Source of the DNA: Candidatus Cloacimonadota bacterium
GTDB lineage: Bacteria > Cloacimonadota > Cloacimonadia > JGIOTU-2
Reading direction: 5' to 3'
Assembly (NCBI GenBank): GCA_030613025.1
Contig: JAUWMT010000013.1
Coordinates: 1 to 59,794, forward strand
Length of the DNA: 59,794 nucleotides
The translations under genes were made by a program, and so were the position numbers. The notes under the pieces were generated by a model, which did no database searches, was not told the origin of the DNA, and saw only the letters and a list, made by a program, of their open reading frames with translations. Of this stretch, positions 32,854-40,399 are shown one piece after another (the stretch's first letter is position 1; each line of letters starts with the position of its first letter).

Positions 32854-33108
32854 TTAATAAACCACAGAGAACACCGAGAGCACGGAGGAATTTCGATTTG
32901 TGACAAGATACTTTTCTAAGGGTATTATTTCTGTTTTACCGTCTTCGGCAGTTGTCGCAAATTTTGCGACAACTGAATTCTTATTCCTTAAATATGTTAT
33001 TGATATGTTTACAAAAGTTTTAATATCCCTATCGTATAGTTCCGCCATTTGACGGAGGTTTAATCAAACTGTTTCATCAAAAAGAACTACATTGATATTT
33101 ATTTTTCC
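32854..33108 (-). pseudogene. RhuM-family fragment (virulence RhuM/Fic-like), degenerate
   Basis: Minus-strand translation gives INVVLFDETV, a TGA at 33066-33064, then LNLRQMAELYDRDIKT and NSVVAKFATTAEDGK. RhuM proteins have this order, with Trp where the TGA now sits (ETVWL...QMAEL). After AEDGK homology ends within about 10 residues, next to a CACAGAGAACACCGAG-type intergenic repeat at 32861-32888. So this is a truncated remnant with an internal stop, lying at the left edge of the R-M island. A 27-base near-perfect palindrome (CAGTTGTCGCAAA, T, TTTGCGACAACTG) falls at 32949-32975 within the NSVVAKFATT codons. Confidence 0.75.
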
Positions 33109-35817: not shown

Positions 35818-37080
35818 TTAAAATCTATCAATATGCTCCGACAAATAATAAATAATCTTAATCATTCCTGCTTTTAATCTTTCAAGTTCTTTTATAGCCT
35901 GTTTAATAGATAACCTATATTCATCTTTAATGAAACTTTCTACTTGTTGCCCCTGCTTTTTAATTTCTATAATATATCTGTCAATTTCGCTTGAATCGCG
36001 ATCACTTCTAACAGATAAAACTAATGTCAAAAAGATACCTACCAAAAAGAAAGCAAACAATATCTCTACTATGTAAAAAAACTGGGCCACATCAGATGCT
36101 GGTGAGATTGTAGGAATTCCGTTTGCAAAAAGAGTATTCACGCTATAATAAAAAAACTGAAAGAAATTCGGTGCCGTATTTAGTGCAAAATAATTATGAT
36201 TAATTTTATAAAGGCCAACATTAATTACAGCAAAAATGAGGATTGCTACAACTGCGAGTATTAGAAAATTAATTACATAAAAAATAAAATTAAATTTACT
36301 TTTCTGGTATTCTCGAAGTTTAGATGATAAAAAATAACATCCGCGGTTAAATACAATTGCTAATTGAAGATTGTTGGACCATTTTTGTAATTGAGCTTCA
36401 TTCATTCTTTCAGGAGACAATTCTTTAACTTCCTTATCAAATGAAAACATCTTTCTGCTTCCTGCAAAAAGCTTAGATATTGTCTTCGAATAAACTTGAT
36501 ATAATGCAGAAGGTTTAAATATTAAGATAAATCTATAGACGAAAATGATAAAAAGTATTATAAGCAATGTCAATATAGATGTCCAAATAATGATTTTATT
36601 TGACACAACAAAAATTAGAAAAGAGGATACCAACAACAGGGCTGTGATTATGAAGTTGAACTTTATTGACTTAAAGAATGCAACAAAGGCATTGACAAAA
36701 GCTAATGTTGCAATCCAGTTTTTAGTTTTAAAGAAAAGTTTAGGGACTTTCCAAAATAAAATTATAAGAGGATAAAAAAGAATATAAGAAAACCATGCCA
36801 GAATATATTTATTTTTTGTAAAGAGCCATATAGTAGCAATTAATCCTATCATAATGAAAAATTTATACTTAACGACCCATGCGGCACTTGGGAAGAAGGT
36901 GCCCGTAAGAAATATATCAATATCGTAAATAAATATCTTTGTAACAGTATAAATCCAAAAAGATAACGCTAAGAATTCTCTTGGTAATGTATAGAAAAGG
37001 CTTTTATTTTTCTTTTTGTCTCGTTCCTTCGTTTCTTTCTCCTTACGTTTGTTATCAATTTTGATTATTTCTCCAGACAT
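35818..37080 (-). CDS. Multi-TM pore-like membrane protein inside the R-M operon
   Basis: A 420-residue protein with about seven TM helices. The segment FFYYSVNTLFANGIPTISPASD, between two helices at about residues 315-340, has the layout of a two-TM ion-channel pore (pore helix, selectivity loop, inner helix), but no GYG or TVG filter, so ion selectivity is not predictable. A helical cytoplasmic tail of about 70 residues (KKQGQQVESFIKDEYRLSIKQAIKELERLKAG) follows. It starts 2 bases after the mod stop and 27 bases before res, so it is part of the operon. Function is inferred: perhaps a defence effector. Confidence 0.78.
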   Translation of the reverse strand: MSGEIIKIDNKRKEKETKERDKKKNKSLFYTLPREFLALSFWIYTVTKIFIYDIDIFLTGTFFPSAAWVVKYKFFIMIGLIATIWLFTKNKYILAWFSYILFYPLIILFWKVPKLFFKTKNWIATLAFVNAFVAFFKSIKFNFIITALLLVSSFLIFVVSNKIIIWTSILTLLIILFIIFVYRFILIFKPSALYQVYSKTISKLFAGSRKMFSFDKEVKELSPERMNEAQLQKWSNNLQLAIVFNRGCYFLSSKLREYQKSKFNFIFYVINFLILAVVAILIFAVINVGLYKINHNYFALNTAPNFFQFFYYSVNTLFANGIPTISPASDVAQFFYIVEILFAFFLVGIFLTLVLSVRSDRDSSEIDRYIIEIKKQGQQVESFIKDEYRLSIKQAIKELERLKAGMIKIIYYLSEHIDRF

Positions 37081-38792: not shown

Positions 38793-38897
38793 AAGCACGG
38801 CATTTCGTATAACGGTTTTGGTATATCTGAAGTTTTTGCAAGGCAAAAATTTGGGCGAACGAAGTAAGCCGTATAGCGCGTGTTAGGCGACGTGCTT
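38793..38897. other. Attachment-site-like hairpin at left edge of the protease cassette
   Basis: Outer arms AAGCACG and CGTGCTT are exact inverse complements. Nested inside are CGTATAACGG versus CCGTATA and a perfect TTTTTGC/GCAAAAA hairpin. The right end contains GTTAGGC in the sequence TGTTAGGCGACGTGCTT; a matching TTAGGCGACATGCTT is found in inverse orientation at 40117-40103. The layout resembles an integron attC or related cassette junction, but there is no exact inverse GCCTAAC on the left, so the assignment is tentative. Confidence 0.4.
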
Positions 38898-38898
38898 C

Positions 38899-39132
38899 TC
38901 ATCTTACCAACTTAATTATTTCTTCCCAGCTACTAGTTTCTTCTTGGTGAGTTCTTGATGTTATAAGTTTTGTTTTGAACTTAGCTCTTAAATACTTAGC
39001 TATCAGTTCGGCATCTCTGACATTATCTAAAAGAGGGATTGCTTCTATGTCCTTTATGGATATTTCTTCCTTATATAACAACAATGCTTCAGCCATCTTC
39101 AATGCTATTGTTTCTTTCTCTAAAGTTCTCAT
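38899..39132 (-). CDS. Small 77-residue protein coupled to the SDH protease
   Basis: Unrecognised 77-residue charged, mostly helical protein (MAEALLLYKEEISIKDIEAI). The start codon overlaps the protease stop (ATGA) and is preceded by AGGAGG at the end of the protease gene, so translation is coupled. The layout suggests an adaptor, regulator or antidote, but this is speculation. Confidence 0.7.
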   Translation of the reverse strand: MRTLEKETIALKMAEALLLYKEEISIKDIEAIPLLDNVRDAELIAKYLRAKFKTKLITSRTHQEETSSWEEIIKLVR

Positions 39133-40070
39133 TTTCGTAAATCCTCCTGTTGATGTTCTTTGATTTTAGATTTTTTTTTATCTAAAATCTCTGTTGGTAA
39201 TTTTTCTATTGTTTTCATAACATAAGCCTCGTTTTTTTTACGATATAGTTCGCCTTTTTGTTTTATTAATTCATGTAAATCACATACAAAGTTTAAAAGT
39301 TTTCCTTCGAGTTCTTGAACATTAAGTCCAATTTTTTTAGCCTCGATTATATTTATGCAAAATCCGTGATTAGCAAATTCCTTTGTAAGTTTTTTCGCAA
39401 TTTCTTCTGGTGTAGCTCCTAACCTTTTCGTTTTCTCCATTCGCTCTTTTAACAATCTTACAAGATATTGTTCAGCAATTTCATGAGATTTAACAAAGCT
39501 TCCTAATGTTAAAGGAAATTGTAAACGCTTTAGTAAACCTTCTGCCAAATCTTTATTTCCATTCTTGAACTCATTTCGAATCATTTCTAAGGTTGTTTGA
39601 ATATGAAGAGGTGAAAACTGTTCAAACCGTTCTTCTATAGGATTTATCTGTGTTATTTGTGGATCTAAGGGACCTAACTCTGCTATGGGACTCATCAAAA
39701 TTTCCTCACCAGCACAAACAATAAGAGTAGCCGCACTTTTCGCCCACCGGGGAACAATAAAAGTAAGTTTCTTATTCCCATACCTTTGGAACAAACAAGC
39801 TAAGTTGTAAGCTGCATCTATATCTCCACCGGGTGAATTCACAATTACATCTATTTCACCATTTATATCGCCATATTGTCCTCTCAAATCTTTATAAACT
39901 TCGTCTACAACAGATGAAGTAATAGGACTATCCAATATGAAACAGTGCCTATTTCTTTCCTTCTCTATTGTTTTGACCATCTCATCTATTTTTTTGTTTA
40001 TATGTTTTATCTGTGCATCAATTGGATTATGCACATCCTTTTTTGTTCTTTCTTCTTTCTTTTTATCCAT
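39129..40070 (-). CDS. SDH/SppA-like serine protease with Clp fold
   Basis: A 313-residue protein, read from the ATG at 40070 because GAGGT lies 7 bases before it; an upstream ATG at 40088 adds six residues. The Clp-fold crotonase signature is clear: IDVIVNSPGGDIDAAYNLA (oxyanion region), then PRWAKSAATLIVCAGEEILM with the likely nucleophilic Ser, matching the 'serine dehydrogenase proteinase' (SDH_sah) family. No signal peptide, so it is probably cytosolic or membrane-associated. It forms a two-gene cassette with the 77-residue protein, bounded by inverted repeats, beside the type III R-M genes. Confidence 0.83.
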   Translation of the reverse strand: MDKKKEERTKKDVHNPIDAQIKHINKKIDEMVKTIEKERNRHCFILDSPITSSVVDEVYKDLRGQYGDINGEIDVIVNSPGGDIDAAYNLACLFQRYGNKKLTFIVPRWAKSAATLIVCAGEEILMSPIAELGPLDPQITQINPIEERFEQFSPLHIQTTLEMIRNEFKNGNKDLAEGLLKRLQFPLTLGSFVKSHEIAEQYLVRLLKERMEKTKRLGATPEEIAKKLTKEFANHGFCINIIEAKKIGLNVQELEGKLLNFVCDLHELIKQKGELYRKKNEAYVMKTIEKLPTEILDKKKSKIKEHQQEDLRK

Positions 40071-40101
40071 AATTTTTACCTCTATCATTTTGTTTTTCTC
40101 T

Positions 40102-40160
40102 TAAAGCATGTCGCCTAATGTTTGTGTCCTCGCATATCTATTGCGTACACACAACCATAT
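40102..40160. other. Attachment-site-like hairpin at right edge of the protease cassette
   Basis: The plus strand reads AAGCATGTCGCCTAATG, the inverse complement of TTAGGCGACATGCTT. Beyond it ATGTTTGTGT pairs with ACACAACCAT (one mismatch) and CGCA with TGCG, inside outer GCC...GGC, an imperfect hairpin of about 53 bases. It mirrors the left boundary in orientation. Further out at about 40170 is a CGCAATATTGCG palindrome. The spacer up to the kinase (40161-40462) has no gene but does hold a GTCTGGGCGTA palindrome (about 40400-40455). Confidence 0.4.
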
Positions 40161-40399
40161 CTGGCGGTATCCGCGCAATATTGCGTGGATTTTGCTTTTA
40201 GTTTCTTTCATAAAATTTTTCCATATTACAACATCTATTTCCGCTTATTATCATTATTAAAAACAGCATTCGCTTCAATGCTTAGTCTTTTTATTTTATT
40301 CCCTTCCTTTGTTGTCAATTTAATTAAAAAAATTGAAACTTGAGACATGCCTGCTGCACCATAATCCTTTTGATGAAGGCGGATCACTCTTCTCTCTCT

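Follow-up and report, generated by a model that had tools for sequence, protein, structure and literature searches.

Gene cassettes of integrons, whether mobile, sedentary chromosomal or of the CALIN type, carry one or more open reading frames followed, in the same orientation, by a hairpin recombination site (attC), and they run in series after a tyrosine recombinase gene. Modules of the XerCD pdif kind have dif-like XerC/XerD sites at their boundaries. An attC site is expected to be 57-141 bp long, with an R'' core of RYYYAAC and an R' core of GTTRRRY (PMC12901181), and extrahelical bases in its L'' arm serve as the criterion for strand selection (PMC2727003). The integrase IntI is defined by an additional domain (PMC9229058), and two integron surveys have chosen integrases by this additional domain, or patch (PMC2426708 and PMC9229058). 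A subgroup of ‘integron-like’ tyrosine recombinases has also been reported (PMC8138268), and the part of that account considered here describes no cassettes, attI-like site or end rule for the insertion-less members.

Here we analyse a locus in a 59,794-nucleotide stretch of DNA (the window) from a Candidatus Cloacimonadota bacterium. Our reading, to which we assign a probability of about 0.78, is that one cassette, consisting of a protease gene, a gene for a 77-aa protein and an attC-like site, sits at the attI-like primary site of an integron-like capture system whose recombinase is an IntI-related tyrosine recombinase without the IntI additional domain (patch-less). The features of the locus are listed in Table 1.

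Table 1. Features of the cassette and its insertion site, in window coordinates.
Feature	Position	Strand	Evidence
attC-like site, 83 bp	38806..38888	-	covariance model R1, 81.1 bits (window in training set); family covariation
Cassette tail AAGCACGTCGCCTAA (reverse complement of the plus-strand 15-mer; overlaps R'')	38883..38897	-	end matching
77-aa partner protein	38899..39132	-	ATGA overlap with protease gene; kept beside protease in L067
319-aa SDH-type ClpP-fold serine protease	39129..40088	-	PF01972, 63.1 bits against cut-off of 31.3; SPGGD and KSAATL kept
Cassette head TTAGGCGACATGCTT	40104..40118	-	complementary to own tail except position 10
attI-like primary site upstream of cassette	about 40119..40199	-	alignment to sites 3' of recombinase remnants at C33, C81, C53; folding

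The cassette spans 1306 bp (38813-40118) on the minus strand, and its two ends are the inverted repeat that a sequence-only reading of the locus had picked out: TTAGGCGACGTGCTT on the plus strand (38883-38897) and TTAGGCGACATGCTT on the minus strand (40104-40118) do face inward with one mismatch, at the positions given there. The repeat, of which the 2.83-Mb assembly has two copies in total, against none for a backwards control pattern, is real and not a matter of chance. The two reading frames joined by ATGA were likewise confirmed, and both genes, followed by the attC-like site, lie on the minus strand, as ORFs and 3' site do in an integron cassette. On the minus strand (38888-38806) the left site reads GCCTAAC...GTTATAC, with R'' (GCCTAAC, 38882-38888), the L''/L' arms, an inner hairpin and R' (GTTATAC, 38807-38813). 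Its length and R'' fit the attC criterion; R' has one misfit to GTTRRRY in place, and becomes GTTAGGC when joined to the cassette's own head. As in integron attC sites, the crossover is inferred to fall at G^TT, here between 38813 (G) and 38812 (T), and at the head it would fall between 40119 and 40118. That the locus has the anatomy of a cassette is nearly certain, and this anatomy upholds the earlier proposal of a mobile cassette of integron-like kind.

A DNA search found elements related to the left site beside different genes, in this genome and in others. The branched hairpin common to eleven aligned copies shows compensatory change, 15 of its pairs having changed on both sides; the covariation score of this alignment was reached by none of 500 shuffles, and slid controls scored far lower. 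In the L''/L' arms, 9 of 10 pairs have changed on both sides family-wide, and the pairing of the window copy is weak, with about half of the 10 formed. The covariance model R1 picks out six copies in this genome as good (one in the window, one at C2, and two each at C53 and C56), and each copy inspected here lies after an ORF. Cargo of other cassettes in the genome (L064 5587-7047, L065 4546-5548, L013 76-1464) includes an HNH protein (486 aa), a glyoxalase-fold protein, a cupin and a 462-aa AAA-associated protein. The analysis covered 125 genomes of the phylum Cloacimonadota. At E<=1e-4 the model gave 66 matches in 23 of 196 sampled genomes, and at E<=1e-6 it matched in 36 of 387 genomes. Many R1-type sites lie far from any recombinase, and none convincing was found in plasmids or viral contigs. 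The family differs from integron attC sites in the R''-L'' spacer, which measures 1 nt where the other arm has about 5 nt, and in its L stem, which is continuous in well-formed members, no extrahelical base being seen in the L'' arm by inspection of the aligned copies.

Members of the family follow a common end rule, in that the head and tail of a cassette are complementary over about 15-18 nt. For 16 of 50 testable sites, a head within 6.5 kb upstream matches the complement of the site's own tail with at most 2 mismatches in 15, where swapped tails would be expected to give 0.22. In 27 of 31 cassettes, position 10, which was not used in choosing heads, sets a head A against a tail C on the top strand, and thus T against G on the bottom strand; the single mismatch of the window repeat falls at this position. 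A C56 cassette lying between two sites, for example, has the head TTAGCTGAAATTT and the tail AAACTTCAGCTAA, and further private pairs occur at C53. Because each cassette has private ends, the 15-nt repeat is found only at the window. The sequence-only reading had asked for further copies of the repeat with different cargo and had named a repeat restricted to this locus as refuting it; the 15-mer has no further copy, and the refutation fails, since uniqueness is what a family with own complementary ends leads one to expect. Class-1 cassettes, head and tail of which are also complementary, showed 7-11 bp of complementarity and no position-10 rule when scanned likewise with a simple script, by which some of them were poorly resolved. 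Once head and tail are connected as they would be in an excised circle, the bottom strand reaches -21.9 kcal/mol (z -4.6) and its outer stem is continuous, compared with -15.6 kcal/mol for the joined top strand and -11 to -14 for the integrated form. This suggests that the position-10 wobble may bias the choice of strand.

At the right end, the site comprises a palindrome (40169-40190, ATCCGCGCAATATTGCGTGGAT on the plus strand), hairpin arms at 40122-40134 and 40142-40154, and ACAAACA adjoining the crossover point. Elsewhere in this genome, at C33, C81 and C53, remnants of a recombinase (e.g. SSKTTEIYTHVTNAAKNKIVSPLDNL) are each shortly followed by a site that has palindromes around ATCCACG... 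and GTGTTCACG... and ends with CAAACA^TTAG or a variant of it. The window sequence from 40199 to 40119 aligns with these three sites at z of 6.9-9.4 over mononucleotide shuffles, and its GGACACAAACATTAG is identical to C33. Since the right flank is homologous to sites directly 3' of recombinase remnants, we read it as the attI-like counterpart of the attC-like site within one system, rather than as another attC. Beside the window site itself no such remnant could be recognised. At several loci the first cassette starts just after a palindrome, as in atatccgaacatttcggatatgaatgag^TTAGGCG and agacgacattgtcgtctgtgaacgag^TTATGTG. Of the two boundaries, earlier described as complex hairpins, the right flank folds far more strongly than its shuffles (z about -6, 0/200); the left folds no better than its shuffles in the integrated form (z -0.4 to -1.1), but strongly on the bottom strand of the joined ends. 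The right-hand structure, first placed at 40102-40160, extends to about 40199, and as it differs in kind from the left one, the ends are not the pair of inverted attC-like hairpins originally supposed.

At nine loci in eight genomes (G292, G211 twice, G125, G285, G015, G061, G059 and G178), a patch-less tyrosine recombinase gene, whole or fragmentary, precedes R1 sites on the same strand. Several of the linked recombinases are fragments, that of G059 being only 38 aa, and that of G178 is 38% identical. The patch-less enzyme resembles IntI (TIGR02249) in its recombinase superfamily, its catalytic residues and the placing of its gene beside a primary site and cassettes. It differs in matching TIGR02249 in two halves, at 224-226 bits against a cut-off of 265, in showing a gap where the IntI additional domain of about 36 aa would align, in possessing a further N-terminal domain (about 90 aa), and in lying upstream of the array on the same strand. 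The model NF040815 (‘site-specific tyrosine recombinase/integron integrase’) is matched at 234 and 224 bits, over its cut-off of 220. In a tree of only 20 rows, the patch-less group stands apart from IntI with moderate support (87/84, and 100/100 for IntI). Viral contigs held no patch-less recombinase, and in this genome remnants were seen but no intact copy. In two species of the genus xerD lies next to the C53 array; XerD was set aside as the recombinase because a recombinase remnant lies between xerD and the array in this genome; none was recognised between them in G001. The arrays beside xerD start with different first cassettes in the two species (L064 5539-15188, L117), and one cassette with the same ends measures 5.6 kb in this genome (G000), where it holds inositol-phosphate-synthase-like genes, and 3.1 kb in G001.

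A search for a distant integrase gene, as the sequence-only reading had advised, did find an intact canonical IntI on the separate contig C4 (8444-9481, L011), which scores 434.7 bits, has the catalytic residues and the additional domain, and is 46-47% identical to IntI1 and 59% to the IntI of G012. At L011 3855 the start of an rsmI-like gene occurs a second time. Canonical integrons have an IntI with additional domain beside the array; at the window there is none, and the IntI of this genome is on another contig. A caveat for the reading as a whole is that MAG contigs are liable to breakage and misbinning. R1 sites were found neither beside the C4 gene nor on IntI contigs of relatives, and a check of 44 viral contigs with IntI and of plasmid integrons gave none either; six genomes without IntI carry R1-type sites. 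In G012, of the same family, a complete canonical integron (L050 1-1883) has IntI, an attI-like junction and a single 161-aa cassette, together with an attC of the classical type that does not resemble R1.

These observations bear on the possibility that the locus is an ordinary integron cassette, put in place without any second recombinase by the IntI of C4 or by that of a former host, whether at a secondary (attG-type) site or in a degraded array (CALIN-type). An intact IntI in the same genome could act in trans, R'' and the R' of the circle match the core-site consensus, and orphan attC clusters and insertions outside integrons are documented in the literature; nevertheless, the absence of R1-type sites beside IntI, their presence in genomes without it, the different attC of the G012 integron and the homology of the insertion site to sites beside the patch-less recombinase make such an origin unlikely. 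Of the ‘integron-like or undescribed recombinase target’ first suggested, the evidence fits the latter better than a canonical IntI target. Far less probable still, to the point of being nearly negligible, is that there is no mobile cassette here, only a chance inverted repeat with terminator-like or MITE-like hairpins around two ordinary genes. Such a view could appeal to the shuffle-like folding of the integrated left hairpin and to the confinement of the 15-mer to the window, but it is contradicted by the covariation, by the copies after different ORFs across the genome, by the statistics of private ends and by the attI homology.

For a capture system served by a patch-less recombinase, sequence comparison suggests a putative enzyme and a possible sequence of events. 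Recombination at G^TT of the attC-like site would free a circle that connects the head of the cassette to its own tail. The bottom strand of this circle would fold as an attC hairpin with an outer stem of ~15 bp containing the T.G wobble at position 10, against the A.C mismatch of the top strand, a difference that would bias the choice of strand, and the recombinase would join the folded strand to the palindromic attI-like site adjoining its own gene. As only recombinase remnants were seen in this genome, the likely state of the window cassette is that it is stranded, or else moved in trans.

Among its cargo, the protease shares its motifs with SDH-type PF01972 proteases and exceeds the Pfam cut-off, but falls far below that of the NCBIfam equivalog NF047768 (SDH family Clp-fold proteinase; 69.1 against 250 bits), and it further differs in its coupled small partner and in being borne on a cassette. 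The 77-aa protein has no Pfam family, and the protease no homologue in the PDB by sequence. On a Dadabacteria contig (L067) the pair recurs in the same order, with 59% identity for the protease and 43% for the small protein (79 aa), without an R1 site and convergent with the adjoining HmaC gene of an Hma defence system; the protease frame there has one stop near its start. In G178 (L034 808-2283), a 387-aa protease (30% identical), a 67-aa gene and an R1 attC follow in the same order near a tRNA-like sequence. None of the close relatives sampled from the family of this genome has the window protease at E<=1e-10, viral contigs have no homologue, and all homologues among the plasmid matches listed are below 32% identity. 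This distribution fits horizontally moving cargo.

The protease had been proposed as a defence effector, and it is possible, though we hold it only tentatively, that the pair is an anti-phage module in which the protease is under the control or guidance of its small partner; otherwise it would be a non-defence pair for proteolysis or stress. The support comes from the neighbourhood: pair order is conserved beside HmaC, the window pair adjoins a type III R-M system, and the second protease with its 67-aa gene is also cassette cargo. Against this, PADLOC matched neither protein, only two neighbourhoods are at hand, any kinship of the 67-aa gene to the 77-aa gene is conjectural, and SDH/ClpP-fold proteases have other roles. 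The idea that the cassette is joined to the R-M island was not borne out, and R-M genes were rejected as members of one array with it, since neither an attC nor a matching tail turned up beyond mod and res. The segment after the attC-like site (38796-38812) begins TTATACGAAATGCCGTGCTT, resembling another cassette head, and its CGTGCTT pairs with the tail of the protease cassette (AAGCACG); a tail for this segment was not found beyond res. A 420-aa membrane-protein-like ORF without Pfam match lies between mod and res (35818-37080), and a 64-aa fragment after res (32854-33048), like a decayed gene, presumably resembles RhuM-type proteins.

Some leads, which are not tests, come from beyond the window. 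Bacteroidota plasmids (Rufibacter, Chryseobacterium) carry recombinases of the patch-less group followed by runs of same-strand small genes, a few of which have private ends that obey the position-10 rule. TnpF, found beside tet(X3), falls in the patch-less group in the tree. On plasmid pHH1107 (L264 5043-7150), TnpF is followed by a palindromic attI-like site just upstream of tet(X3) (tatacgccatttggcgtatagccacttg^TTATGTG), by tet(X3) and by a hairpin after it, which suggests that tet(X3) was once a cassette; the agreement between its tail and head covers only 11 of 15 positions, and no R1 match was found. The known spread of tet(X3) is by ISCR2 (PMC7722449).

We lean towards the view that a second, IntI-independent capture system is widespread in bacteria, combining a patch-less tyrosine recombinase, attC-like cassettes with long private ends and the position-10 wobble, and palindromic attI-like sites. 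Some of the attC clusters without IntI would thereby be explained, and the TnpF branch may first have captured tet(X) as a cassette, with ISCR2 spreading it later. Because the two surveys chose integrases by the patch, they would discard a patch-less family and count its cassettes among orphan attC clusters. That the window cassette is docked at a site whose counterparts elsewhere in the genome adjoin recombinase remnants points to a second capture system of integron-like kind, one that standard integron searches would miss. We found no description of such a cassette system in the open-licence literature, the extent of our search, so that novelty is not proven. Should this view hold, gene cassettes are captured by a second lineage of enzymes that has a primary site of its own, and cassettes can be found by a simple sequence rule, so that the origin of cassettes without IntI would become directly testable, and there would be a hypothesis for the first mobilisation of the clinically important resistance gene tet(X3).
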